Positions 1 through 19,886 of a stretch of DNA of 55,807 nt are shown piece after piece. Where the stretch lies: positions 1 to 55,807 of IMG/VR virus record IMGVR_UViG_3300008012_000033; one strand, 5' to 3'. The notes beneath the pieces were generated by a model that was not told where the DNA came from, did not search any database, and saw only the letters and a program-made list of their open reading frames with translations. The position numbers and the translations under genes are program-made. How positions within the stretch are numbered: position 1 is the first letter of the stretch; every line of letters begins with the position of its first letter. Source of the DNA: a virus.

Positions 1-123
1 CATCAGAGAGGTGGGCTCTACTGACCCAGATATCACTGAATACGGTAGGGTTGGTAGGGGCAATAGTGTTGAACTGACGTCAGAAAATGCTGGCTCTGTC
101 ATCGACAGAATCATCGCCTCAGG
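1..123. repeat. Left copy of 123-bp terminal direct repeat
   Basis: These bases are identical to 55685-55807. Joining the copies keeps one reading frame open across the junction, so the contig closes into a circle of about 55,684 bp. The repeat lies inside a coding region, which fits an assembler overlap on a circular or circularly permuted genome better than a T7-style terminal repeat, which normally lies outside genes. Confidence 0.95.
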
Positions 124-3100
124 TAAAATTGTAACCACCCGCTTCTCAAATAGAGAGCAGATCATTCGTGGACTGCAAAACATCAAGAACATTATTGCTA
201 CAGTTACTGAAGCTGGGACAGGTGGCAAGGTGTTTCTGCACGGCACCACGAAAGCGTATGAAAAAGCTACAGGGGAGCGTTTTGCTAGAGGTGTGCATGT
301 GGTGTACAAGAGAAAGGACGACGGGACAGTGCAAAGCGCCGAGGTGCATTTGTTCTTGCCTGCACTAGAGGCCAACACGCCATACCACGAAGCGTTCCAC
401 CAGGCCACCTTGCAGAACGAAAATCAAGAGGATACCAAGGCAGGCACCAGACGTCTTGCTGCAACGCTGGCACGTCTGATTCCCAACATCGATGTGTTCT
501 CTAGATTCATTGCGGCATACCTGCCTGAAGAGCAACGATCAGTCCTTGCTTTGGCTGAGGCAGACCCTGCTATGCAGAGAAAGCTTCTGATGCAAATCGT
601 TGCGGAAAACGATACTGCGGCAGACGAGCTCTTGACAGAGATCAAGTCGTTGATTACATCGGGCACATTGAGTATTGATTTCAAGGCGGGCTTGATCTCA
701 GGGCTCAAGGAGTTTGTGTCTCGCACCTTTGGCACTTCTTTCAAAGACCCAAAGCTCAAGGCCGTTGTCGCAGCCATCGACGCCGCTACCCAAGCGATGG
801 CTAGGGGTGAGGCTGTAGCCGACACCGAAGCGATTATCGAAGCTGGTTTAAGATTGCAAGAGGGCCCAACAGCCATCGACGAAGAGGAGGGTGCGGTACT
901 TGAAGCTCAAGTAGATGAGGACGGCAACAGTGTGCAGCCAGGGTTGGACTCGCAAGAATCTGTCACTGAAGAGGGGCTTCCTGTTGATCCCGCCCAAGTC
1001 CAGGCCAAGAAGCAAGCCATCAATGTGGCAGGAACCTACATGGCCAACCAACCCACGGTAGACATTGCCAGTCTCTTGTCTGACTTCAAGGCTGAGAACA
1101 ATCGCAACCCTGTCGTATGGGTGTGGATGGCTGACCAGTTGAAGAGAGGCACGTACAGCAACCCTGATACGGGCGTTGAAGCACAGGTTTTGGGAGGCAT
1201 CGGATTTAGTACCGACCAGCAAAACCAAGACAACGATGTGGTGTGGGCATCAGGCTTGTCTCCCAAGACATTGAATGACAGGGTTGGTCGAGCTGACTAC
1301 ATCTTCCTGATGTCTGGCTCACCCAAGTCGGCACACAACTTCTCCAAGGGTACGTCCAAGGTGTTGATCCAGGAGATCGAAGCTGGGATGAAAAGAAATA
1401 TCGGCAAGACCTTTGGTGGCGTCGAGATTGTAGAGGGGTCGTTTGATGAGTTTGTGCAAATCACAAACTCTCTCCTGAAGACCAAGACAGAAACAAAGAA
1501 GTGGATGGGCGTGCTCAAGGCTTTGAACAGCCGAGGCAAAGACGTTGTCGATCACCCATCACGCAAAACATTTGTGCAGAACATGCTGCACCAAGGCATG
1601 GGCGTCAAGCCATCCCTTGAGTTTCATACGTTCTTGCACGACGAGCTTGGCGTGCCAAAGCAGGATGTCTTCAATCGACTGCTTAGAGACGAATACCTTG
1701 AAAAGATTGATGCCCAAACGGGTGACATCGTAGGCGTGTTGGAGCCTACGGGTATACAAGAGGACTCTGACGCTCACGACACCTATCAGCACTCTATCCT
1801 GGGCAAGTTTGTAGGTACACCTACCTCGCTGTTCAATGTCGTTGACATCGTGCCGACAGAAATCGTACAGCAACTGGCCAAGGCGGGCGCAGATATCGCA
1901 GCTCTGTCCAAGCCAGCCCTGATCAAAACGATTGCTGGCGACGTAGGGGGTGTGTTCTCTGAGAGCCAGATTGATTTGATCCGCAACAGCATCGAGTCTC
2001 TGTCCGATGCAGACACCACTGTTGAGTCTGTCACGAAACGTCAGGGCATCGTAAGCACTGTGGCGGATATCATGACTGAGCCAGGCTTTACACTCAAGCA
2101 GGTGGGTCGAGGCAAAAAGAAAAAGCTCGTTCTTGAAAAGACCGATCAGATACGACTGTTCAAGCCCAAGAAAGAAGAAGTCTTGAAGGTGCTAGAGGAT
2201 TCTGGCATGAGCAAAAAGGACGCTGAGGAAACATACAAGAAGGCAGTACAGTTTGCTCGGGGCCGAAGAGTCGGGCGCACGGAGCAAGGCAAGGTTGTCT
2301 CTAAGATTAGAAGAGAAAAGAACAAGCTATCTACCGAGGCAAAGAAACTGAGAGAGGAGCTGGACGCTTTGAAAAACAAAGTGTCTACGGTGCAGCAGTT
2401 TATCCGTGAGGCACGCAAGCTTATCAAAGATCGGATGGCCAAGGACAAAGGCGCATCCAAGGTGTTCACCGTAAAGCAACTGACAGAGTTTTTCAAGGTC
2501 ATGTCTCAGCTGTCTCGTTCGTCAGCTAAGAAGTTGAAGGGCAACGAGTTAGAGTACATCGATGCGCACCTGGATAAGTTGGCTGCCATCTTTGATGAGC
2601 AAGATGCCAGGGGTGCTATGGAGAGGCACCTCAAAAACTTGCAGACTATTCGTCAGTTCCAAAGCACGTTGAAGAGAAAGTCAAAGCAACGGGACTTCAC
2701 GACATACGCTGATCTTGCATTAGCCTTGTCCCGCATCAAGGCGTCCTTGATTCCTTTGGAGGAGCTTGAGGCGTTCATGAACTTGCTCAACACGGTCAAC
2801 AACAACATGCGCCGTGGACGGTTTGCCAAGGATGAGGAGGGCAACCTTGTGTTCGATGCCACTCAGTTGAATGAGGTCAAAGGATTGCAGGCGCAGCTCG
2901 ATGCATTCAAAGCAATCGAGCAAGCGCAGCAACAGGCGCAGCTACGGGCTAAGGCCGAGAGAGCCGTAGAGCGTAAGCTTTTGAAGGGCGAAGAGACCAC
3001 CTTTGAAGAGGAGTACGAAGCTATCTTAAAGAAGTTCTTCGAGAGCAGGCTTAGTGCCACGCAGAAGAGAGTCAACAAGATGGCGGAAAAGCTGGGTCTT

Positions 3101-6100
3101 GACCCACGTAATGTTGACGATCTCGAGACCATCTACTTGGAGTTGGCCAAAGAGGAGAAGGCACTGGTTGATCTAAAGAAATCTTTGATCATTGACGAAG
3201 GCATTATGCCTCTGATGCTTTTCAATGCTGAGGCTATCCTTGCCGACCCAGGGTTCCGCTTGATCATGGGCTTGCCTCAAAACGCCAACATTGAAGACGA
3301 CGAGGTCTTTAACAAAGTTCGTAAAAGATTAGACAAGCTTGAGAAGCACCACCTCTTGGCGATCGAGTACAAGCTCAATGACTACCTCGTCAATGGCAGA
3401 ACTTTTGGACTCGGATACTTGGCTGCACTCACCAAGGGGCGCATCAATTACGCCGATAAGATCACGAAACTGACAGAAAGAGGTATTTCGTCAAAGCGAA
3501 CAGCCGTTCTTGGTGTGTTGGATAACTTGTCTAGTCTGCTTAGGAATCTTTTCCGTGTGAGCAACAGAGACATTGCTCGAATCAAGGTGGCGATCGGATT
3601 GCAAGACGTGATCATGGCTATCAATGCTTTTGAACAAAGGCACTTGGAAACTGCCAACGCACTGCAAGAGAAGATTGACGAGATCAACAAGAAGTTTTCT
3701 CTCAAGGGCAAAACAGACATTACGTCGAAGCTAAGTCAAGCACTGTCGCAGATATACAGCATGTCTCGTCAGATGCCAAAAGAGTTTGTTGAAGAGGCTC
3801 GTGCTGCCTCTAGGACGCAAGAGGATTTTGAGCAGCGTCTTGCAGAAAAGCAAGCGGCATGGTATAAAGCCTTGCGTGATTCTATGCAAGCTACAATCGA
3901 GGACATAGAGCAAAATGAAAGTGCTGTTCAAGAAACGATCGACCAGTTCAAAGAAGCTTTTGACTTCTTGTTTACAGGAGAAGCAACGCTAGAGGCGTTG
4001 CAAAACCGTGTGCAGACAGGGCGCCCTGAGGTTGTAGAGATGGTGGACTTTATGGTCGATCTGCACGAACGAGCTAGGCCCGACTTGGAAATCTTTGCAG
4101 AAAGATTTCTTGGGAAAGAGCTTGGCGTCCTCGACAACTACACGCCATTCCAGGTTAGAAAAACTTCAAAAGATGAGGATGTAGAATCTGTCATGGCCTT
4201 GCGCAATGCATTGGTTAGCAGGATGCAAGCCTCATCAAAAGGTGGGGTACAGAAAACTCCTGGTGCAACTTTCGAGAGAGAGCAAAGGGCTGTGGGTGGT
4301 GAAGCAATCTTGGGATTGAATTTCATCGACATCAACCACAACACCCTGAGGGAGAATGCGTTGATTACTACAGCTTTGGGGGACATCCTTGCGATGGAGT
4401 ATGCGTTTGGAACGGAAGCGTTTGGCAACTTGGTAAAAGACGAAGCTGGTGGTCAGCTCAAGCAATACGTCAGGGATTTCTTGCAGGTTGAAACACAAAG
4501 CGAACCGTTTATCTTCCGCAGTCGTGTTCGTGTTGGCGGTAAGGCATTGTTGAACCCCATCGAATCCTTGCGTGCTGCGGCGGTTGTTGGTGCATTCGGA
4601 TCGATTTTTGTTCAGGTTGTCAAACAGGGCACCGTCGGCTTGGCGACATTCATGAATATGCGGAGCATCAGCTCCATGATGTATTTCATGCAAGAGTCCG
4701 CAAGCATCCTTGCATTGACATTTGTCGGGACAGATATTGAGGGCAAGCGTAAGGTCTTGAGCGATCCTACTGTTAAGCTTCCTGGAGACAAGTTCGAGTT
4801 GCTCAAAAGAAGTGCAGCATTTTTGAGAGACTACCGTGCAGGAAACATCGACCCGTTCCAAGGCAACACAAACTTTGACAGGTCTAGAATGCGACGGTTG
4901 AGAGACACGTTCACAAACAAGTCTTTGTGGGCTTTGACTACAACGGATAAGGCGGTTGCTGTTGCTTCTTTCTTTGCTTACTACGCTGACTTCTTAATTG
5001 AACAGGGTGTTGTGACGAGCGCATCTGATATTGATTGGACGAACGAAGCAGCCAATCCCAATGCAGAAGCCTTGGCGTATGCCGACAACATGCTTGAAAA
5101 AGATCAGAACACTTCAAGTGCTCGAATGGCAGCAGCCATTTACAAAAGAGATGGTGGTGCTGGTCGAAGCTTGATGCAAGCGTTCTTCCCGTATCAAAGT
5201 TTTGCGATCAACACAAAGAGGTCGTTGACATCGGATGTGGGAAGACTTCTTATGGGTGTAGATGCACAAGCAAGAAAGGATGGACTCAGAGGTTTTGCTG
5301 CAACCATGTCGTCCTTGTTTGCCTTCCACATCGCATCTAAAATGACGATGGCACTCTTCAACGAGATTGTCAAACAAGCGATGGGTGATGATGATGACGA
5401 AGAGAAGGAGTTTGATGCAGTTCAAATGTTGAAAGAGTCTGGTGTGAGTGCTGCGGTTGATGCTCTTCCCGTTCCATCTATAGGTATGGTTGACGACAAT
5501 GTTCGAGATGCCTTTAACTACCACTTGTTCTTCAACGAAGCGGACTACGACATCCCTGGACTCGAAAAAGAAGACAAGTTTGCCTTGTTCAAAAAGTATG
5601 GTGGTGCTGTCCCAACTTATGGAGACAGCTATGCGGACATGGCAAAGAATGAAAAAGAGCCAGGGGCTAGAGCTTTGTACACTTTGCTTGGGTTGACAGG
5701 GCCAGCGGGACAAAAGTTCAGAGACATCACGACATCAATTGATCGACTGAAGAGAGATGGTAAGTCGTATACGACCAACTCAGGAAGCGAAAGGTTTGTG
5801 AGACCTGAAGATCAAGAGCACATGCAGATCAGCACGGTCTTGAGGGCAACACTACACGGAGCTAACCTTGTGGGCTTGGGTGTCAAAGAGTTGGACTACT
5901 TTGCCAAGGCTATGGACGACATGCCTATGAATAGATCGCTGACCAGTGAGGAAGAGGCTGCGGCATACGAGTTTGTGACACAAGCTTTCAGTGACGACCC
6001 AGAGCTTCAAGCTTACCTTGAAGCTGGCGAAGACATAGGTGTTGACAAGCTCATGCGTATCTTGAAGATGCAAGCAGAAAGCGACTTGACAACGCTAGAC

Positions 6101-6385
6101 AAAAACATCAGCGTCTCAAAGTTCAAGTCTGCTTTGAAGCCCGCTGTAGCTGAGAAGCTGTTGCAAAACATCATGCCTGAACAATACAGTCAGCATGCGA
6201 ACGAGATGCGTAGATTGTCCAAAGAAAGCTCTAAGAAAATCGCCTCTGTTCTCAAGGCCAAAGAGAGGGAGATGACCGAGGAAGAGTACAACGCATACTT
6301 TAATTTTGCTTTCTTTTACTTAGGCATTAAATCTGAGGCAGGTCTCGAATCTATTCTAACAGAAAAAGCATTTGCTACACCATGA
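2..6385 (+). CDS. Giant virion-associated polyvalent protein, C-terminal two-thirds (continues from 52896)
   Basis: This is residues 931-3057 of a protein that begins at 52896 and crosses the circle junction; the two segments sum to 9174 nt, exactly 3058 codons. A zinc-peptidase-like HEAFH motif sits at about residues 1059-1063 (nt 386-400). Around residues 1690-1750 there is a Lys/Glu-rich coiled coil. Hydrophobic Gly/Ala-rich segments lie near residues 2443-2483 and 2694-2725, the second followed by an acidic DDDDEE run. Size, position after two internal-virion-like genes and before the lysin, and mixed peptidase, coiled-coil and membrane-active segments resemble large polyvalent or ejected virion proteins (the T7 gp16 position). 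I found no transglycosylase or N4-type virion RNA polymerase motif. The stop overlaps the amidase start as ATGA. The ejection role is inferred; the catalytic motif is seen but activity is unproven. Confidence 0.85.
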   Translation: MREVGSTDPDITEYGRVGRGNSVELTSENAGSVIDRIIASGKIVTTRFSNREQIIRGLQNIKNIIATVTEAGTGGKVFLHGTTKAYEKATGERFARGVHVVYKRKDDGTVQSAEVHLFLPALEANTPYHEAFHQATLQNENQEDTKAGTRRLAATLARLIPNIDVFSRFIAAYLPEEQRSVLALAEADPAMQRKLLMQIVAENDTAADELLTEIKSLITSGTLSIDFKAGLISGLKEFVSRTFGTSFKDPKLKAVVAAIDAATQAMARGEAVADTEAIIEAGLRLQEGPTAIDEEEGAVLEAQVDEDGNSVQPGLDSQESVTEEGLPVDPAQVQAKKQAINVAGTYMANQPTVDIASLLSDFKAENNRNPVVWVWMADQLKRGTYSNPDTGVEAQVLGGIGFSTDQQNQDNDVVWASGLSPKTLNDRVGRADYIFLMSGSPKSAHNFSKGTSKVLIQEIEAGMKRNIGKTFGGVEIVEGSFDEFVQITNSLLKTKTETKKWMGVLKALNSRGKDVVDHPSRKTFVQNMLHQGMGVKPSLEFHTFLHDELGVPKQDVFNRLLRDEYLEKIDAQTGDIVGVLEPTGIQEDSDAHDTYQHSILGKFVGTPTSLFNVVDIVPTEIVQQLAKAGADIAALSKPALIKTIAGDVGGVFSESQIDLIRNSIESLSDADTTVESVTKRQGIVSTVADIMTEPGFTLKQVGRGKKKKLVLEKTDQIRLFKPKKEEVLKVLEDSGMSKKDAEETYKKAVQFARGRRVGRTEQGKVVSKIRREKNKLSTEAKKLREELDALKNKVSTVQQFIREARKLIKDRMAKDKGASKVFTVKQLTEFFKVMSQLSRSSAKKLKGNELEYIDAHLDKLAAIFDEQDARGAMERHLKNLQTIRQFQSTLKRKSKQRDFTTYADLALALSRIKASLIPLEELEAFMNLLNTVNNNMRRGRFAKDEEGNLVFDATQLNEVKGLQAQLDAFKAIEQAQQQAQLRAKAERAVERKLLKGEETTFEEEYEAILKKFFESRLSATQKRVNKMAEKLGLDPRNVDDLETIYLELAKEEKALVDLKKSLIIDEGIMPLMLFNAEAILADPGFRLIMGLPQNANIEDDEVFNKVRKRLDKLEKHHLLAIEYKLNDYLVNGRTFGLGYLAALTKGRINYADKITKLTERGISSKRTAVLGVLDNLSSLLRNLFRVSNRDIARIKVAIGLQDVIMAINAFEQRHLETANALQEKIDEINKKFSLKGKTDITSKLSQALSQIYSMSRQMPKEFVEEARAASRTQEDFEQRLAEKQAAWYKALRDSMQATIEDIEQNESAVQETIDQFKEAFDFLFTGEATLEALQNRVQTGRPEVVEMVDFMVDLHERARPDLEIFAERFLGKELGVLDNYTPFQVRKTSKDEDVESVMALRNALVSRMQASSKGGVQKTPGATFEREQRAVGGEAILGLNFIDINHNTLRENALITTALGDILAMEYAFGTEAFGNLVKDEAGGQLKQYVRDFLQVETQSEPFIFRSRVRVGGKALLNPIESLRAAAVVGAFGSIFVQVVKQGTVGLATFMNMRSISSMMYFMQESASILALTFVGTDIEGKRKVLSDPTVKLPGDKFELLKRSAAFLRDYRAGNIDPFQGNTNFDRSRMRRLRDTFTNKSLWALTTTDKAVAVASFFAYYADFLIEQGVVTSASDIDWTNEAANPNAEALAYADNMLEKDQNTSSARMAAAIYKRDGGAGRSLMQAFFPYQSFAINTKRSLTSDVGRLLMGVDAQARKDGLRGFAATMSSLFAFHIASKMTMALFNEIVKQAMGDDDDEEKEFDAVQMLKESGVSAAVDALPVPSIGMVDDNVRDAFNYHLFFNEADYDIPGLEKEDKFALFKKYGGAVPTYGDSYADMAKNEKEPGARALYTLLGLTGPAGQKFRDITTSIDRLKRDGKSYTTNSGSERFVRPEDQEHMQISTVLRATLHGANLVGLGVKELDYFAKAMDDMPMNRSLTSEEEAAAYEFVTQAFSDDPELQAYLEAGEDIGVDKLMRILKMQAESDLTTLDKNISVSKFKSALKPAVAEKLLQNIMPEQYSQHANEMRRLSKESSKKIASVLKAKEREMTEEEYNAYFNFAFFYLGIKSEAGLESILTEKAFATP

Positions 6386-6801
6386 GAAACATTGACAGAA
6401 TTGTATTGCACTGCTCGGCTACACCCGAGGGCAAAGACTACAGCGTAGAAACGATCCGTGATTGGCACGTCAACGGAAACGGTTGGGCTGACATTGGATA
6501 CCACTACGTCATCAGACTTGATGGCAGTGTGGAGTTGGGCCGACCTATCGACAAGGCGGGTGCTCACGTCAAAGGCCACAACAAAACAACAGTGGGCGTA
6601 TGCTACATCGGAGGATGCGATGAGGGTATGCTTCCCAAAGACACGATGTCGGAGGATCAGGCTTGCGCCTTTGAAGAAATCGTAAACGGTGTGAGATGTC
6701 TTTTTGGGAAAGACATCTCCATCCACGGACACAATGAATACTCGAACAAGGCTTGTCCAAGCTTCGTCGTTCAAGAGAAGTTTTCACACCTCGACTCATG
6801 A
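6382..6801 (+). CDS. Endolysin: N-acetylmuramoyl-L-alanine amidase (T7 lysozyme/amidase_2 family)
   Basis: This 139-residue protein should cut the amide bond between N-acetylmuramate and L-alanine in peptidoglycan at lysis. It aligns by eye with T7 lysozyme. HCSATPEG carries the first zinc ligand (His10), GYHYVI carries the Tyr40 equivalent of T7 Tyr46, and the tail NKACPSF carries Lys123 and Cys125. His117 takes the place of T7 His122. All three zinc ligands and the catalytic Tyr/Lys pair are therefore present. There is no signal peptide, so it needs the holin encoded at 10626. It overlaps the giant gene upstream and the T9SS gene downstream by ATGA, so all three are probably translationally coupled. 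Whether it also binds an RNA polymerase, as T7 lysozyme does, cannot be told, and no phage RNA polymerase was found. Confidence 0.93.
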   Translation: MRNIDRIVLHCSATPEGKDYSVETIRDWHVNGNGWADIGYHYVIRLDGSVELGRPIDKAGAHVKGHNKTTVGVCYIGGCDEGMLPKDTMSEDQACAFEEIVNGVRCLFGKDISIHGHNEYSNKACPSFVVQEKFSHLDS

Positions 6802-8930
6802 GATTCCTACCTCTTCTTTTACTCCCTCTGTTTGCAACAGCACAGGAGGGCTGGGTGTCCATCTCCATCCAAGGGGACGCATACGGGGAAGAAACGACGT
6901 GGCTTATTAGAGACTCAAGCGACGCCATCGTTGCAGGTTCAGCGCCTTTGCAGGGAGAGTATCCGTATGTCGAGGCGTTCCTTCCACTGCCTCTTGGTGA
7001 GTACACCTTTACCATCTACGATTCTTTTGGCGATGGCATCTGCTGTGGCTTCGGGGAGGGCTGGTTTTCGATCAACACCTGTGAGTTAGACACCACGGTG
7101 TATGACTTCAGTGCGTCAGAGATGACCGTCCCCTTCGAGGTTCTTGCCTGTCCACCACCCATCTTTGGATGTATGCAAGCGGGTGCTATCAACTATCACC
7201 CCTGGGCCAACGCTCCTGCACCTTGCGACTTCCCTCCCGTACAATGCGAAGAAGGATACAACAACATCCTTGTAACAGTTACGCCTGACACTTATGCAGC
7301 TGAGATCAGCTGGGATCTAGTCACAGTCCCAGACGGTGAAGTGGTTGCTGAGGGGTCAGGCTATTCTATTGTAGGCGCTCCCGTTGTAGAGGCTGTGTGC
7401 CTACCTGTTGGTTCGGAGTTCAGGGTGGACGTGTACGACAGCTTCGGAGATGGTATGTGCGGCAGCTGCTATGGAGGAGTAGATGGGAACCTGCTTGTTT
7501 CCAACCTGTGTGGAGAGACGCTGTACTACGTGGGTGATACTACGCAGTACGAAGTAGCATCAAGTGATACTATCGTGATCGACCCATGCTTCCCGCCCAT
7601 CCCTCAGGGATGCACCGACTCGTGGTTTACAGAGTACGATCCCAGTGCCGTGATCGATGACGGCAGCTGTCAGACAGAGGTGATACTGGGATGCACTGAT
7701 CCTCAAGCAATTAACTTCAATGAGGATGCCAATACACTGGAGACAGAAGACAACTGTGACTTTACTCTGACACTTACGGACGGAGCAGGAGATGGTTGGT
7801 TCGGTAGCTGGGTTGGAGTGCAGCAGGGCGACGAGATCTGGGGTCCGTTTACCATGTACCCTAGCGACGAGTTTGAGAAAGAGATTCAGATCCCTCTGTA
7901 CTCTGGAGAAGCAGTCAGGGTCATGTTCTTTACGCAGGGTAACGCAGAGACAACCGCATCCCAATGCGGGTTCTACTTCGACGGGCCAAGCGGTGTGTTC
8001 ATGGAGGGCGGGACCAACCCGTGGTCCGATGCCATCAAGAAGTTCCCATTTAAGTACGACGGCGTGCCTGTATGCGGAGACTTCTGCGAGGCTGGTATCG
8101 AGGGCTGCACGCTTAGCTTCGCCTGCAACTACGACCCCGAGGCAAACGTAGACGGTGACTGCACCTTCCCGATCGAGCACTACGGATGCGACAACGAGTG
8201 TATCAACGACGCCGATGGCGACGGGGTGTGTGACGAGCTTGAGGTGGTGGGTTGTCAAGACCCAACAGCATACAACTACAACGAGTCGGCCACAGATCCA
8301 GCAGAGTGCGAGGAAGTTGTGTTTGGGTGTACTGACCCCACCATGTTCAACTACAACGAGCTGGCCAACACAGAGAACAACAGTTGCGTTGAGTTCATCT
8401 ACGGATGCACCATTCCCGAGGCGATCAACTACGACCCGATGGCCAACACCAACAATGGAAGCTGTGAGTTGCCTATGCCTGGGTGTATGGACCCTGACGC
8501 TGCCAACTACAACGTGTACGCTAACGTACCCAACAACGAAGAGTGTCTGTACGACGCTGGATGCATCACTGGTCCAGGTGAGCCATACTGGGCCAACGAC
8601 TACTGCTACTCGTGGGTGATTGAGGTTGACCCCTACTGCTGCGAGGTGGGATGGGATGCGGTGTGCATCAGTCAGTACGAATACTGTGCAGGTCAGGTGT
8701 CTTCCATCACCTCGGATGTAAGGGAGATGACTTACTTCTTCCCAAACCCTACTGAAAACATCATCAACGTAGAGGCACCCACAGGCACAGTGATTACCAT
8801 CTACGATGCATCAGGCAAGAAGGTGGTGGAGACACAGGACACTCGAATCGATCTCCCATCTCCAGGGGTCTATGTCATCATGGCTAGCTATCAAGGTAGG
8901 ATTACAAAAGAAAGAATCGTAAGACAATGA
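6798..8930 (+). CDS. Secreted multi-repeat surface protein with T9SS type A sorting domain
   Basis: This 710-residue protein starts at 6798, not at the in-frame codon further upstream. That ATG overlaps the amidase stop (ATGA) and opens a clean signal peptide (MRFLPLLLLPLFATAQ). Three modules of the type YDSFGDG/TDGAGDG follow, near residues 68, 215 and 325. About eight Cys-bounded repeats of the form GC(T/M/Q)DPxAxNYxxxAN...C then run from roughly residue 124 to 595. One TSP3-like calcium loop (DADGDGVCDE) interrupts them, and a Cys-rich segment follows. Residues 644-710 look like a type IX secretion sorting domain: FFPNPTENIINV, then IYDASGKKV, then SPGVYVI, ending in a basic KERIVRQ. Such domains send Bacteroidetes proteins through the outer membrane for surface anchoring. 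I see no catalytic domain. It may be a host-derived surface protein used for exclusion, adhesion or lysis. Confidence 0.88.
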   Translation: MRFLPLLLLPLFATAQEGWVSISIQGDAYGEETTWLIRDSSDAIVAGSAPLQGEYPYVEAFLPLPLGEYTFTIYDSFGDGICCGFGEGWFSINTCELDTTVYDFSASEMTVPFEVLACPPPIFGCMQAGAINYHPWANAPAPCDFPPVQCEEGYNNILVTVTPDTYAAEISWDLVTVPDGEVVAEGSGYSIVGAPVVEAVCLPVGSEFRVDVYDSFGDGMCGSCYGGVDGNLLVSNLCGETLYYVGDTTQYEVASSDTIVIDPCFPPIPQGCTDSWFTEYDPSAVIDDGSCQTEVILGCTDPQAINFNEDANTLETEDNCDFTLTLTDGAGDGWFGSWVGVQQGDEIWGPFTMYPSDEFEKEIQIPLYSGEAVRVMFFTQGNAETTASQCGFYFDGPSGVFMEGGTNPWSDAIKKFPFKYDGVPVCGDFCEAGIEGCTLSFACNYDPEANVDGDCTFPIEHYGCDNECINDADGDGVCDELEVVGCQDPTAYNYNESATDPAECEEVVFGCTDPTMFNYNELANTENNSCVEFIYGCTIPEAINYDPMANTNNGSCELPMPGCMDPDAANYNVYANVPNNEECLYDAGCITGPGEPYWANDYCYSWVIEVDPYCCEVGWDAVCISQYEYCAGQVSSITSDVREMTYFFPNPTENIINVEAPTGTVITIYDASGKKVVETQDTRIDLPSPGVYVIMASYQGRITKERIVRQ

Positions 8931-15796: not shown

Positions 15797-16389
15797 CACG
15801 GCATAGCTTCAGCGAGACGCCCGATGTCCTCAAGCTTGCGAACCTGATCGTCTGTCAGGTTGGTCTTGTGCTTCGCCAAGACTGCTTTCACTGCGGCAGA
15901 CTTGTTCTTGCTTTGGTCAACGTGTGTCCAACACTTGTCGTACAACGACTCTTCGCTCTTAGGCTTCGGTGCGGCCTTCGGTGCGGCAGGTGCGCTCCGA
16001 CCATGCGTATTGGTGCTGTCGCTATCCTTGGTGTCATCGATGCAGAACAGACCATTGAGAGCATACTTGCGGGCATAGCTCGATGAGGCTCCTGTGACCT
16101 GACTCCCATCCATGCCTTTCTTGCTTTCCTCCTCACGGGCAAATGCCGTGGTCTTGAGTTCCGCTTCACCATCTGTCAATCGGGCCGTGGCCTTGACATA
16201 GATGCGCCCTGAAACCTCTACAATCTCGTCACTCAAGGTGAGGATGAGACCATGTTCCATCGTCAAGGGTTTGACAGCTTCGAGGATGTCTTCGGCTGAC
16301 CTGTACTTGTACTTGCCGAAGTTGTTTGTTTGGCCCTTGGGGGCCTTGAGCGCACCTTGGATGCGGCTCACTTTCTCTACTAATTTCAT
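15796..16389 (-). CDS. ERF-family single-strand annealing protein
   Basis: I start at MKLVEKVSRIQGALKAPK (ATG at 16389), giving 197 residues; a longer in-frame start at 16431 would run through the promoter-like box. The ERF core is clear: KAPKGQTNNFGKYKYRSAEDILEAVKPL, then GLILTLSDEIVEV, and KKGMDGSQVTGASSSYARKYALNGLFCIDD, where the GAxSSYARKYAL block is the family signature. A Pro/Ala/Lys linker leads to a C-terminal three-helix-like tail. It should pair complementary single strands made by the exonuclease downstream, a lambda Red-like pair. Confidence 0.9.
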   Translation of the reverse strand: MKLVEKVSRIQGALKAPKGQTNNFGKYKYRSAEDILEAVKPLTMEHGLILTLSDEIVEVSGRIYVKATARLTDGEAELKTTAFAREEESKKGMDGSQVTGASSSYARKYALNGLFCIDDTKDSDSTNTHGRSAPAAPKAAPKPKSEESLYDKCWTHVDQSKNKSAAVKAVLAKHKTNLTDDQVRKLEDIGRLAEAMP

Positions 16390-16411
16390 GTAACTAAATT
16401 TAAGTGGGGGA

Positions 16412-16419
16412 TAAATATA
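16412..16419 (-). promoter_or_regulatory. Possible -7 box TATATTTA before the annealing gene
   Basis: On the minus strand TATATTTA lies 22 bases before the ERF start, the same distance seen for the TATATTTG late boxes. It differs in the last base and has no clear TTG at -33. It could let the recombination genes be transcribed separately from the small early genes. Confidence 0.4.
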
Positions 16420-16427
16420 CGTCTTTT

Positions 16428-16619
16428 TCAACCTTCACCCAAAAACTCCTGCATGGTATTGTCCATGTTTTGGGCGGTGCCGAGGCTCTCCATGCTGACG
16501 ATGATGTCGCTTGGTCTGCCGCTGTTCTTTCTCCACCATGCAATGGTTTCTGCGATGGTTTCGAAGATTGGTGTGCCATCATAGATGGCGTTGTCTATTT
16601 CATTTACGATTGTGTACAT
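16428..16619 (-). CDS. Small unknown early protein (63 residues)
   Basis: The frame opens at MYTIVNEIDNAIYDG (ATG 16619); a TTG two codons earlier is less likely. It contains AETIAWWRKNSGRPSDIIVS and an acidic end. The start lies 20 bases inside the end of the preceding small gene. No family was recognised. Confidence 0.6.
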   Translation of the reverse strand: MYTIVNEIDNAIYDGTPIFETIAETIAWWRKNSGRPSDIIVSMESLGTAQNMDNTMQEFLGEG

Positions 16620-16728
16620 ATCCAAGTGTGTTGAGGATTTTACAGATGTCTTCTAAGGCACTCTTGTACTGCTCCACCTCATCGGTGAGCAGGGCCATCG
16701 TGGTTTTCAGTTCTTCAATTGTGTGCAT
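16600..16728 (-). CDS. 42-residue helical early peptide
   Basis: The ATG at 16728 follows AAATACCCC directly, the same leader signature as other early genes here. The peptide MHTIEELKTTMALLTDEVEQ, continuing YKSALEDICKILNTLGYVHNRK, is one amphipathic helix or coiled coil. It fills the gap between two genes and overlaps the next by 20 bases. Function is unknown. Confidence 0.55.
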   Translation of the reverse strand: MHTIEELKTTMALLTDEVEQYKSALEDICKILNTLGYVHNRK

Positions 16729-16735
16729 GGGGTAT

Positions 16736-16963
16736 TTATTTACGTGGGTACAGGCTAACAGAGGCTCTTTTCTTTTTCACTCCGTACTTGAAGGTGGGCC
16801 AAAACGTGACCAACAGGCCGATGTTTTCCATGATGGCATCTTCAAGCCATGCTTTGGATTCCAAATCCAAAGTATCCTCTCCGTGCAGGTTGCTGAAGTT
16901 GTCCCATGCAACGGTGAGTTCGTCAATGGACAGTTCAAGGAAGGGATTCTTTGTCATGTCCAT
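16736..16963 (-). CDS. Small unknown early protein (75 residues)
   Basis: It starts at MDMTKNPFLELSIDEL (ATG 16963) inside the last bases of the upstream gene (10-base overlap); a second ATG lies two codons in. The product is acidic at the start and ends in a basic tail (KYGVKKKRASVSLYPRK). No family was recognised. Confidence 0.6.
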   Translation of the reverse strand: MDMTKNPFLELSIDELTVAWDNFSNLHGEDTLDLESKAWLEDAIMENIGLLVTFWPTFKYGVKKKRASVSLYPRK

Positions 16964-17184
16964 GAATCTAATGGGTCTGAATTATTTTTCTTGTGGTTCA
17001 CTGCACACAATCGCAGTTCGTACTTGTTTTCAATTGGACATTCTGCGCTTGGCCGAAGCATATCAACGGCATCTAGTGTGAAGTCATACAGGTCTTCAGA
17101 CAACGTGGTGTCGTGTACTTCGATGACCACAAGTGAGTCGTCGGGGTATTCTCGCAATGCGTCAATCAATTCTGCTTTAGTCAT
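16954..17184 (-). CDS. Small unknown early protein (76 residues)
   Basis: MTKAELIDALREYPDDSLVVIEVHDTT has the helix-then-strand pattern of a common small phage/plasmid family in which TKxELIxxLxxYPDDxxV is typical. The ATG at 17184 overlaps the upstream stop by ATGA. Function is unknown. Confidence 0.65.
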   Translation of the reverse strand: MTKAELIDALREYPDDSLVVIEVHDTTLSEDLYDFTLDAVDMLRPSAECPIENKYELRLCAVNHKKNNSDPLDSWT

Positions 17185-17306
17185 GGCTTCTTGGGCTTTT
17201 TGGGTTTGGGTATGCGGACTATGTTCAGAACCTGCCTGTCCATAGCTTTATTGTGCAGGTCTGCAATTTCTTTGATGAGGTTGAACTGCTCGTTGTCTTT
17301 GTTCAT
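17181..17306 (-). CDS. 41-residue early peptide with basic Pro-Lys tail
   Basis: The start at 17306 (MNKDNEQFNLIKEIADLHNK) overlaps the previous stop by ATGA and is preferred to a longer frame reaching 17387. The end, RIPKPKKPKKP, is strongly basic. The stop overlaps the next start by ATGA. Function is unknown. Confidence 0.6.
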   Translation of the reverse strand: MNKDNEQFNLIKEIADLHNKAMDRQVLNIVRIPKPKKPKKP

Positions 17307-17644
17307 TGCTCTGCTTTTTTGTAGTCCATGATGAGTTGGTCGATGGTCTTTCCATCGTTCAAGGTTTCGGGGCGACGATTCATCCATGCCACCATGCTTC
17401 GGAGGAACTCCGCTGATGCGTTGACAGGAGTTTCCTCGTATTGGTAGTCATCCTCGTCTTCCCATTCGGTGTAGTAGTAGTAGTCGTCTTCGTAAGCATC
17501 CTCAATTGATGCGTACTCGGTGTCATTGGTGATGTGTTCACTCATGTGCTTCTCGCTCTTGATGTACATGGCTCCATCGCCGATGCAGAATCCTGCGTTC
17601 ATGCCTTGTCCTGTGACATCACATTGTCTTGCGTACTTTTTCAT
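17303..17644 (-). CDS. Acidic early protein of a Bacteroidetes-type family (113 residues)
   Basis: The opening MKKYARQCDVTGQGMNAGFCIGDG is of a type I associate with small Bacteroidetes proteins, with Cys8 and Cys20 as a possible metal or disulfide pair. A Tyr/Asp/Glu-rich middle (DDYYYYTEWEDEDDYQYEE) gives a strong negative charge that might mimic DNA. The C-terminal part is helical. It is coupled on both sides by ATGA. A host-takeover role is speculation. Confidence 0.65.
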   Translation of the reverse strand: MKKYARQCDVTGQGMNAGFCIGDGAMYIKSEKHMSEHITNDTEYASIEDAYEDDYYYYTEWEDEDDYQYEETPVNASAEFLRSMVAWMNRRPETLNDGKTIDQLIMDYKKAEQ

Positions 17645-17820
17645 TGTGCTTGGGTATTAGCAGTTTCTTTTTGGATGTAGTGCTCATCGTACTTGAAGCC
17701 ATGCTTCGTGCGTTCGATGTGGCTGATGAAGTTGTCCATGTGCAACTTGTCATTGAAGGTCTTGGTGACAGACCATCCTCGGTGCCTGTCTAGGGTATGG
17801 AAAACGATGGTGGCTCTCAT
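17641..17820 (-). CDS. Small unknown early protein (59 residues)
   Basis: The start at 17820 (MRATIVFHTLDRHRGWSVTK) is set by its ATGA overlap with the upstream gene, in preference to a longer frame. It reads as alternating strands and one helix, with many His and Lys residues. Function is unknown. Confidence 0.6.
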   Translation of the reverse strand: MRATIVFHTLDRHRGWSVTKTFNDKLHMDNFISHIERTKHGFKYDEHYIQKETANTQAQ

Positions 17821-18074
17821 GACATGTAGGTTTCGGTGCCGTCTGCAATCACAACGTGAAACATCATGCAACTATTGTATGGCATCCATGTGTCCATGTC
17901 GAGGAACCGACCACGGCATCCTGTGTAGCCGAATCGCTCACGGACAGCCATCCAAAGCTTGCGCTCTGATGTGCCGCAGGGAACTTCCAAGATGCGTCTC
18001 TCAACGATGCTTCCATTGGCCACCCAAGACATTCCGTCATGGATGGCATCGGTCATGGTGACCAAGTATTTCAT
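17817..18074 (-). CDS. Small unknown early protein (85 residues)
   Basis: I prefer MKYLVTMTDAIHDGMSWVANG (ATG 18074) because it directly follows AATACCCAC, the leader motif of neighbouring genes; another ATG four codons earlier (18086) is possible. The product carries a VVIADGTETYMS end and several Met and Trp residues. No family was recognised. Confidence 0.6.
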   Translation of the reverse strand: MKYLVTMTDAIHDGMSWVANGSIVERRILEVPCGTSERKLWMAVRERFGYTGCRGRFLDMDTWMPYNSCMMFHVVIADGTETYMS

Positions 18075-18124
18075 GTGGGTATTCATGTGTTCTGGGGTTT
18101 AGGGTACATGGGTTTCAGATCCCT

Positions 18125-18460
18125 TCAGTTTTGTTCGTGTTCGTCAAATGTCACGCCGTCAAGGTCTCGGAACTCGGCACTCCATGAATCGGAGAGGATG
18201 ATGTATTCACCATCTCCAACCTGCGTCTCGGCAACGACAGAGAGACCGACAGACACCATGTGTTCGATGGCTTGTTCTCGGATGTCGCCAATCCTGTGGC
18301 TGTAAGGCAGGACGATGGTGTGACGCATCTTGCTCCATGCATCGCTTGCGTCTTTGTGGCTCTTGGTCATGACATCAACAATCTTGACTCGGGCACCACG
18401 ATGGTTCGTGGGCGACAGGAACGTGACCTTGAAGGCACGAAGGTTTTGTACTTCAGACAT
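18125..18460 (-). CDS. Unknown early protein (111 residues)
   Basis: MSEVQNLRAFKVTFLSPTNHRGARVKI begins a strand-rich protein with FLSPTNHRGARVKI and TIVLPYSHRIGDIREQAIEHM segments. This type is frequent in phage and plasmid genomes as a hypothetical, with no known function. The leader ACCCACAACCCCATACCC stands directly before the ATG. Confidence 0.65.
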   Translation of the reverse strand: MSEVQNLRAFKVTFLSPTNHRGARVKIVDVMTKSHKDASDAWSKMRHTIVLPYSHRIGDIREQAIEHMVSVGLSVVAETQVGDGEYIILSDSWSAEFRDLDGVTFDEHEQN

Positions 18461-18477
18461 GGGTATGGGGTTGTGGG

Positions 18478-18651
18478 TTAATCTTGAACGTGGACGATGA
18501 CCTTGCAGACCTTCTTGCCTTCGGCGAAAATTTCTGCATAGTTGTCGAGTTGACGTTGGGCGTCCTCACGTCTTGTGAACATGGTTCCTGCTCGGTAGAT
18601 GTTGTCCAAGACGGGCTCATCATTGTGGTCGCAAATGGCGTACAAAATCAT
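18478..18651 (-). CDS. Small unknown early protein (57 residues)
   Basis: The start at 18651 (MILYAICDHNDEPVLDNIYR) is chosen because ATACCCATACCC precedes it; the longer frame reaching 18735 would read through a hairpin and into another gene. The helix TRREDAQRQLDNYAEIF and the strand VCKVIVHVQD follow. Function is unknown. Confidence 0.6.
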   Translation of the reverse strand: MILYAICDHNDEPVLDNIYRAGTMFTRREDAQRQLDNYAEIFAEGKKVCKVIVHVQD

Positions 18652-18692
18652 GGGTATGGGTATTGTGAGGACGGACGGCATTGCCCGTCCTC
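18652..18692 (-). promoter_or_regulatory. Leader hairpin plus ACAATACCC element
   Basis: GAGGACGG (18667-18674) pairs perfectly with CCGTCCTC (18685-18692). On the minus strand the hairpin is followed directly by ACAATACCCATACCC and then the ATG. There is no U-run, so it is not an intrinsic terminator. It is one of three copies of the same hairpin-plus-leader arrangement. Confidence 0.6.
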
Positions 18693-18701
18693 GGGTTTGT
18701 G

Positions 18702-18878
18702 TCAGGCTTTGTTCAACAGCATCTCGAGTTGGCACTCTTCGCTCTCGAGACGTTGTACTTCCGCACGAATCTCCTTCAGACGTTGCTTCGTGTCTTCAAT
18801 CAACTTGGCTTTGGTTGCCTCCATTGCTTCCCATGCGCATTGCGTTGGGGACTTCAGGGTGTTCTTGGAATTGGTCAT
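18702..18878 (-). CDS. 58-residue coiled-coil early protein
   Basis: The frame starts at MTNSKNTLKSPTQCAWEAME (ATG 18878), preceded by AATACCCAACCCC, and ends at 18702. Residues 20-58 form one long heptad-rich helix (IEDTKQRLKEIRAEVQRLE and on), so it probably acts as a dimer or binds a helical partner. It fills the space between two accepted genes and carries their leader signature. Function is unknown. Confidence 0.65.
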   Translation of the reverse strand: MTNSKNTLKSPTQCAWEAMEATKAKLIEDTKQRLKEIRAEVQRLESEECQLEMLLNKA

Positions 18879-18920
18879 GGGGTTGGGTATTGTGGGGAGG
18901 ACAGGGTGTCCATCCTCCCC
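18879..18920 (-). promoter_or_regulatory. Leader hairpin plus ACAATACCC element
   Basis: GGGGAGGA (18894-18901) pairs perfectly with TCCTCCCC (18913-18920). On the minus strand ACAATACCCAACCCC and the ATG follow at once. No U-run is present. The arrangement matches the copy at 18652-18692. Confidence 0.6.
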
Positions 18921-18935
18921 GAGTTGGTGTTGTCT

Positions 18936-19193
18936 TCAGTTTCGGGTTGGTGCGTACACAATCTCTTGTGCGTGAACCAAGGCGTTGGCCATTGTGCCGT
19001 CTACACCTTGGGCACGAATGCGTTCCCGAATCAGTGGCTTGCATTGGTCGATGACCTTGAGCGCAGTTGCCACACGGACAGCCTGGTCGCCGTCTCCTTG
19101 CGGCACATCCTCTCCTGCAATCTCGCAGGCATTGTACATGGTAGCCGCCAAGGTGGCGTCATTGGCTTGTTTGAGTTGGTCGATGAACAACAT
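18936..19193 (-). CDS. First early gene: unknown 85-residue protein
   Basis: MLFIDQLKQANDATLAATMYN opens a mostly helical protein, with DQAVRVATALKVIDQCKPLIRE as its centre. Being first behind the leftward hub promoter, it should be among the earliest products and is a candidate host-takeover factor. ACACACATACCCC precedes the ATG. No family was recognised. Confidence 0.65.
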   Translation of the reverse strand: MLFIDQLKQANDATLAATMYNACEIAGEDVPQGDGDQAVRVATALKVIDQCKPLIRERIRAQGVDGTMANALVHAQEIVYAPTRN

Positions 19194-19267
19194 GGGGTAT
19201 GTGTGTTGTGTGCTTTCGCACTGGTTTAACTACATCACTAATGTACGAAAGAAGTTGACAAAGTCAA
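19194..19267 (-). promoter_or_regulatory. Leftward early promoter and leader
   Basis: On the minus strand TTG (19267-19265) and TACATTAG (19245-19238) are 19 bases apart, close to the Bacteroidetes TTG / TAnnTTTG pair. The -33 region is the palindrome TTGACTTTGTCAA (19255-19267). The leader then has a GTGC-GAAA-GCAC hairpin (19210-19221) and ACAACACACATACCCC before the ATG at 19193. Confidence 0.6.
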
Positions 19268-19692
19268 GAGTTGTCCACTAAAATAATAGCCAACAAAAGC
19301 CAACGGAATTTGGGGTGCATGCATCCCGGTTGGGTGGGGGTGGAGGACGGCACAAGGTCGGGGGTGGGATTGTCCGAACGATGTGTGGAGCATGAGCAAC
19401 GACCGAAGAAGTTCTGTCTGTCGCCGAGAGGATGGAGAGCAACGGAGACCCGACCACGGCCCGCTGGCAAAACGGCAAAAGTTGCAGCGACATGTGGCGG
19501 CACACAGGCCCCGTGGGTTTGCAGATGCGTTCCGGTTGCGCCCCGCTAGCGCCTGTATGTATGTATAATCCCCACCCCAAACATGTCTGGCGGTATTTTC
19601 ACACCCATCCGAAAAAAAACACACTGTATTGCGATCAACAGAGACGACCTTGCCGCCTTGGAAAACTCACCAAGAGTTTTTCCTAGGGTAGC

Positions 19693-19723
19693 TTGACTTT
19701 ATCAATTTTTCTTGGTACCTTCG
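19693..19723 (+). promoter_or_regulatory. Rightward hub promoter
   Basis: TTG (19693-19695) and TACCTTCG (19716-19723) are 20 bases apart, fitting the Bacteroidetes -33/-7 pattern. The -33 region is TTGACTTTATCAA (19693-19705), which differs in one base from the palindrome at the leftward promoter, so one factor could bind both. Transcription would start about 155 bases before the first gene. Confidence 0.55.
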
Positions 19724-19751
19724 CTAACATAGTGACCGTGTTGTTCGCTTG

Positions 19752-19770
19752 TGTGGACTTGGGGTCCACA
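19752..19770 (+). promoter_or_regulatory. Hairpin in the 5' leader of the rightward unit
   Basis: TGTGGAC (19752-19758) pairs perfectly with GTCCACA (19764-19770) around a five-base loop. A second stem, CTCCA/TGGAG, follows at 19772-19789. Both lie in the roughly 155-nt untranslated leader and lack a U-run. A control or stabilising role is inferred. Confidence 0.45.
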
Positions 19771-19886
19771 GCTCCAACATCATGTGGAGTTTCATTTAGA
19801 CTGTATCCAAGGACACATTTCAGGCTCGATCACTTGCATGATGTGGTGTAACGGGTTAGCTTTGTCTAGACCTCAAGTATAGTAGA

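Follow-up and report, generated by a model that had tools for sequence, protein, structure and literature searches.

Nearly identical, hairpin-linked leaders without Shine-Dalgarno sequences recur on early genes of related phages and may form portable translation-start cassettes

Introduction

What could be the role of nearly the same short leader standing directly ahead of several genes in one viral operon? This question is raised by the IMG/VR virus record IMGVR_UViG_3300008012_000033, of which positions 1-55,807 (55.8 kb; hereafter the window) were analyzed. An initial annotation, made from the letters alone, had pointed out that six starts of the leftward early operon follow C/A-rich elements, three of them adjoined by a hairpin, and had proposed a shared signal, perhaps a translation enhancer read by S1, an RNA-stabilizing cap, or the target of an RNA-binding phage protein. 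Following up this proposal in the window and its relatives, we lean, with somewhat better than even confidence, towards reading the repeat as a portable, Shine-Dalgarno-free translation-start cassette that would be insulated by its hairpin and whose copies would double as exchange points for early genes.

Results

All six starts on the minus strand (19193, 18878, 18651, 18460, 18086/18074, and 16728; Table 1) are preceded by an A/C-rich, nearly G-free leader, the only ambiguity being a second ATG, in frame and upstream at 18086, for the gene at 18074, with AATACCCAC between both ATGs. The hairpins likewise lie where they had been described: the first three leaders start at 19209, 18893, and 18666, and a hairpin ends directly ahead of each, at 19210, 18894, and 18667, abutting the ACAA. 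The final 9 bases of the third leader recur together with the ATG (CCCATACCCATG) directly ahead of the start at 18460. Since G accounts for only 2% of the 20 nucleotides (nt) preceding leader starts, these lack a Shine-Dalgarno sequence, in agreement with the annotation. It should be noted that gene starts are predicted and that folding was computed on short stretches only. Hairpins B and C are predicted to fold at about -20 kcal/mol and occupy intergenic gaps of 31-68 nt; hairpin A (z -1.1) is no stronger than shuffled sequences, yet it is kept in three relatives.

The motif search of start regions that the annotation had suggested confirmed the association with early starts. The minus strand of 16380-19260 contains 8 occurrences of ATACCC followed within 0-8 nt by ATG, compared to 0.13 +/- 0.36 expected from 500 dinucleotide shuffles, and 11 of ATACCC alone, compared to 0.63 in the shuffles. 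Furthermore, TACCC lies at most 20 nt before 7 of the 13 early starts but before none of the 35 rightward starts (p = 2e-5). Within the early operon of the window, a strict motif (ATACC or TACCC) is present at 6/6 starts that do not overlap the preceding gene and at 1/6 that do (17644 only; Fisher p = 0.008). For the five viruses introduced below, the corresponding numbers are 24/40 gapped and 5/24 overlapping starts, with a p-value (0.002) that is merely indicative, because the strict motif was chosen after a laxer one had given p = 0.31.

The leaders are also predicted to be unusually open. Between positions -15 and +12, the mean predicted unpaired probability is 0.76 for 19 leaders, whereas rightward starts average 0.50 and internal ATGs 0.45; of the latter, only 1 of 196 is as open as the leader mean. 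For coupled early starts, the value of about 0.60 is approximate, as 2 of the 6 coordinates used were slightly off (17319 should have been 17306, and 16610 should have been 16619). Adenine is found at -12 in 92%, at -13 in 71%, and at -6 in 58% of the leaders.

The element occurs in five lineages, namely the window (the same virus as L002 and L097), L006, L007/L101, L008, and L009, and the common unit consists of a hairpin, ACAATACCCAACCCC, and the ATG. Among the 15 hairpin leaders of these viruses, the spacer between hairpin and ATG measures 14-17 nt and is exactly 15 nt in nine; other leaders have no hairpin. Leaders stand on at least 5 unrelated gene families, every one in the early operon. 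With hairpin types denoted A, B, and C, the window reads promoter-A-gene 1-B-KSPTQ-C-ILYAI-(no hairpin)-MSEVQ, L006 reads promoter-A-gene 1-B-KSPTQ-C-MSEVQ, and L101 reads promoter-A-gene 1-B-KSPTQ-C-HLYAI-TIQHI-(none)-MSEVQ. The order in L008 is promoter-A-MNDQF-B-MSEVQ, and that in L009 is promoter-(none)-MYNYS-C'-gene 1-B-KYARQ-A-KSPTQ-C-ILYAI-(none)-MSEVQ, where the internal copy of hairpin A ahead of the KSPTQ gene has the form GTGC-TGAA-GCAC. Because the same hairpin is found on different genes and different hairpins are found on one gene, the unit is a module that belongs to no gene, which strongly supports the proposed shared signal on unrelated genes and shows a shuffling of cassettes between relatives that the annotation had not picked up. 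At one junction, the consequence for gene content can be followed directly: the ILYAI gene of the window (start 18651) is flanked by two copies of CCCATACCCATG, and L006, which lacks exactly this gene, has one such leader running into MSEVQ. This difference is the outcome that would be expected from recombination between leader repeats, with neither gain nor loss implied.

Regarding covariation in the hairpins, which had been put forward as a check, T-A, G-C, and A-T all occur at outer pair 2, and both C-G and G-C at pair 4, across the 15 leaders, a comparison that spans hairpin types of uncertain common origin. Within type B, which is orthologous, L009 shows a compensatory change from A-U to G-C, and the same pair is deleted on both sides in L006 and L101. 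Hairpin B was found in exactly five virus lineages, and neither this hairpin nor the exact leader was found in any IMG/VR lineage outside them. A search of IMG/VR for the exact-leader pattern returned 10 records, of which only four, all from this clade, combine a hairpin with a real gene, and the other records resemble chance matches.

Two further structures were considered and set aside. An alternative stem, ACAACA/TGTTGT, over the first ATG (19209-19187) is absent in L006 and L101 and was for this reason taken as a chance match. Upstream open reading frames that start at ATGs within the hairpins continue in frame into the gene in some viruses (MPSVLTIPIPM...) and are out of frame in others, and they do not, therefore, represent a conserved leader peptide.

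Several observations concern the virus and its likely host. Recognizable genes of the window include those for a terminase, a portal protein, Erf, exonuclease VIII, and a primase/helicase. A crAss-type muzzle domain was detected as well, as was a type IX secretion sorting domain. The latter is a weak C-terminal Por_Secre_tail match (E 1.6e-5) in the protein encoded at 6753-8930, which is unusual for a phage. The closest sequenced phages are Flavobacterium elemo phages, Cellulophaga and Maribacter phages, and a Manatee Spring podovirus. Based on the sorting domain and these nearest phages, the host of this podovirus-like phage likely belongs to the Bacteroidota.

The leftward early operon comprises many small genes of unknown function and runs to Erf (16389), which probably has its own promoter, TTTG-N20-TATATTTA. 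No relatives of the MSEVQ gene were found among sequenced phages, and none of the first early gene in bacterial genomes; among the early proteins scanned, no recognized RNA-binding domain was detected, and a scan for known RNA families returned a tRNA as its sole match. The promoter of the operon has a variable -7 element that is retained in L006, L101, L008, and L009 (TACTTTAG, TATCTTAG). It lies in a 650-bp divergent intergenic region (19240-19886) with three Bacteroidota-type promoters (19267 on the minus strand; 19693 and 19834 on the plus strand), and at about 19350-19600, noncoding G+C-rich sequence has similar, non-identical counterparts in L006, L101, and L009. Between early genes of L008 (3870-3935) and L009 (2470-2560), a tRNA-like stretch (GGGGGCGCAGTCGGTGCG...GTTCGAATCCCAACCCCCCTT) was observed, for which ARAGORN made no call and which may represent a degenerate or unusual tRNA.

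Table 1. Features of the leftward early operon in the window, listed in the direction of transcription.
Feature	Coordinates	Strand	Remarks
Early-operon promoter TTG-N19-TACATTAG, Bacteroidota-type	19238..19267	-	No other TTG-N18-21-TAnnTTnG match on the window's minus strand
Hairpin A (GTGC-GAAA-GCAC, 4 bp)	19210..19221	-	5' leader of first gene; also in L006, L101, L008
Leader ACAACACACATACCCC, A/C-rich, 16 nt	19194..19209	-	Abuts ATG
First early gene, 85 amino acids, unknown function	18936..19193	-	Copies 65-86% identical in five other viruses
Hairpin B (GGGGAGGA-TGGACACCCTG-TCCTCCCC)	18894..18920	-	8 Watson-Crick pairs and 3 weaker; z -3.4
Leader ACAATACCCAACCCC, 15 nt	18879..18893	-	
Early gene 2 (KSPTQ gene), 58 amino acids, unknown function	18702..18878	-	
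Hairpin C (GAGGACGG-GCAATGCCGT-CCGTCCTC)	18667..18692	-	8 bp and 2; z -4.3; identical in L006, L101, L009
Leader ACAATACCCATACCC, 15 nt	18652..18666	-	
Early gene 3 (ILYAI gene), 57 amino acids	18478..18651	-	Missing in L006, where hairpin C runs straight into the next gene
Leader without hairpin, AACCCACAACCCCATACCC	18461..18479	-	No predicted structure
Early gene 4 (MSEVQ gene), 111 amino acids	18125..18460	-	Hairpin: none in window, C in L006, B in L008
C/A-rich leader ACCCATGTACCCTAAACCCCAGAACAC ahead of 18086	18087..18113	-	
Short leader (ATAAATACCCC) ahead of gene at 16728	16729..16739	-	

More distant relatives harbor other repeated leaders. A second family, GTTCTAATACTAGAAACCCTTAAACACAATAC-ATG, is present in L003, L025, L026, L029, L033, L113, and L130 and is preceded by AGAAC...GTTCT or by a G+C-rich GGGGAGG...CCTCCCC-like hairpin, an architecture like that of the window built from another sequence. 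For this family, covariation was unsupported by the pair count, with ACAAC/GTTGT found only in L003 after realignment by eye. In L021 (1119-3131), AAACCAATAARAA abuts the ATG of four successive early genes, and a fifth copy of AAACCAATAA lies farther upstream of another start. Several early genes of L028 and L031 (1000-4700) each have a TATCTTTG-type promoter and a TCTCAC leader, forming gene-by-gene promoter cassettes. The early starts of a cultivated Flavobacterium elemo phage, related through its terminase, are weakly similar and A/T-rich.

Discussion

Of the roles that had been suggested for the shared signal, one in translation fits best with the openness of the start regions, the spacing of about 15 nt, the adenines at -12 and -13, and the occurrence at uncoupled starts. 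Bacteroidota ribosomes, which would read the early-gene leaders without Shine-Dalgarno pairing, may be served by two parts of the cassette: the hairpin would shield the start region against upstream RNA, and the following stretch of about 15 nt, A/C-rich, unfolded, and nearly devoid of G, would keep it open. This is roughly the length of mRNA that a 30S subunit covers upstream of the AUG. In this manner, ribosomes could load on every gene of one long transcript independently of the preceding gene, and a self-contained start region would serve those genes that are unable to rely on coupling. Moreover, as nearly the same leader precedes several starts, its copies may act as short direct repeats through which early-gene cassettes could enter, leave, or replace one another exactly at the ATG, an exchange that the encoded Erf/exonuclease VIII pair possibly serves.

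Several points weigh against this interpretation. The five viruses are mutually related, and the counts obtained from them are not independent. Such a leader is missing from several gapped early genes, mostly in the relatives, and C occupies position -3 in 83% of the leaders, while A at -3 is favorable in Flavobacterium johnsoniae. Furthermore, the hairpin type is tied to the upstream gene no less than to the downstream one: B follows gene 1 in 4/5 viruses and C follows KSPTQ in 4/4, and since the upstream gene stays the same, B and C might belong to its end.

This last point leads to the possibility, which we regard with some doubt but take seriously, that the hairpins mainly serve RNA stability or processing, either as 3' protection of the upstream gene or as the 5' end after cleavage, the leader being an ordinary start region, unstructured and independent of them. 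Besides the constancy of the gene ahead of B and C while the downstream gene varies, the predicted strength of these two hairpins and their location in short intergenic gaps are in favor of it; however, the 15-nt distance to the ATG would be unexpected for a 3' protector, and hairpin A stands ahead of every gene of the operon. Since it directly follows the promoter and lies within the first gene's 5' leader, hairpin A is not solely the 3' end of a preceding gene. The same position, together with the missing T-run after the hairpins and an intrinsic-terminator scan of the minus strand between 16000 and 20000 that found none, makes it hardly credible that the hairpins are terminators of the preceding genes, although they are G+C-rich and lie behind stop codons. 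Very improbable, too, is that each element is a promoter, of either a host type resembling promoter early stem-loops (PeSL) or the single-stranded DNA hairpin type of phage N4. A hairpin at a fixed distance from each gene does recall N4 early promoters, and host-type promoters precede several genes in L028 and L031, but no TTG-N18-21-TAnnTTnG match lies ahead of the internal leaders, whose strand has a single match in the window, at 19267. Likewise, no family match and, in six frames, no catalytic motif was found for a phage RNA polymerase, which the N4 type would require as a virion enzyme, with the limits that a 2124-amino acid protein is unclassified and that the contig is possibly incomplete. 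The reading frame of this protein (11-6385) has no Pfam or PHROG match.

If the element were bound by a phage or host RNA-binding protein to turn translation of the early genes on or off, ACAATACCC and the loops of hairpins B and C would be expected to be conserved beyond what openness alone requires, as they are. Yet no RNA-binding protein was recognized in the early operon, and the sequences and loops of types A, B, and C differ widely, for which reason only the leader could be the recognized part; we consider this explanation unlikely. We give a similarly low rating to the idea that the hairpin and the ACAAUACCC leader constitute a virus-specific initiation signal, of which each lineage would have its own version and which a phage or host factor would read to favor early viral mRNAs on Shine-Dalgarno-blind ribosomes. 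Finally, the element might be only a recombination boundary, with repeats kept for cassette exchange and no role in expression. The differences in gene content of relatives at the junctions and the Erf-type annealing protein and exonuclease VIII encoded by the phage are in line with this, but the openness of the ATG, the fixed spacing, the near-absence of G, and the kept stem pairing would be left unexplained, rendering it improbable.

Among known systems, the putative translation-start cassette most resembles the SAS/ESAS repeats found at starts in Cluster K mycobacteriophages and Cluster EF Microbacterium phages, for which a function in translation initiation has been proposed (PMC3203893, PMC7302621). 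Both are lineage-specific repeats in one orientation that abut the starts of many unrelated non-structural genes, and in both an inverted repeat lies upstream in a subset (about half of SAS/ESAS; 15 hairpin leaders here). However, SAS contain a Shine-Dalgarno core (consensus GGGATAGGAGCCC or GGGAAAGGACCCC) 3-7 bp from the start, whereas the window leader is A/C up to the ATG and nearly devoid of G. Moreover, the inverted repeats of ESAS were thought by the authors unlikely to pair as RNA, whereas the stems of the window clade keep their pairing as the sequence changes, so that an RNA hairpin is better supported for them, and lie at a fixed distance of about 15 nt from the ATG, in phages of another host phylum. 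The low G content and the missing Shine-Dalgarno core set the element apart from SAS/ESAS by sequence, and it appears to be a new variant of the same kind. PeSL of T4-type phages (Arbiol 2010 and Comeau 2014, as cited in PMC4503421) are similar in that intergenic stem-loop repeats coincide with the shuffling of small early genes; as far as this citation goes, they combine a terminator and a promoter, whereas internal copies in the window show neither a promoter nor a T-run. Bacteroidota ribosomes disregard Shine-Dalgarno sequences, and low structure together with A at -3, -6, -12, and -13 favors initiation in F. johnsoniae (PMC6847099). The leaders share with these Kozak-like starts the low structure at the ATG and the A at -6, -12, and -13 but differ in the C at -3, in being near-identical across genes, and in the hairpin at a fixed distance.

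Start-codon selection in Bacteroidota, which proceeds without Shine-Dalgarno pairing, is incompletely explained, and a strongly conserved, repeated leader of fixed architecture provides a natural test set for this question, with the shuffling between genes showing which part the phage treats as a portable start signal. The leaders may serve as compact expression leaders for Bacteroidota, and they would mark the exchange sites of small early genes that are possibly directed at the host.

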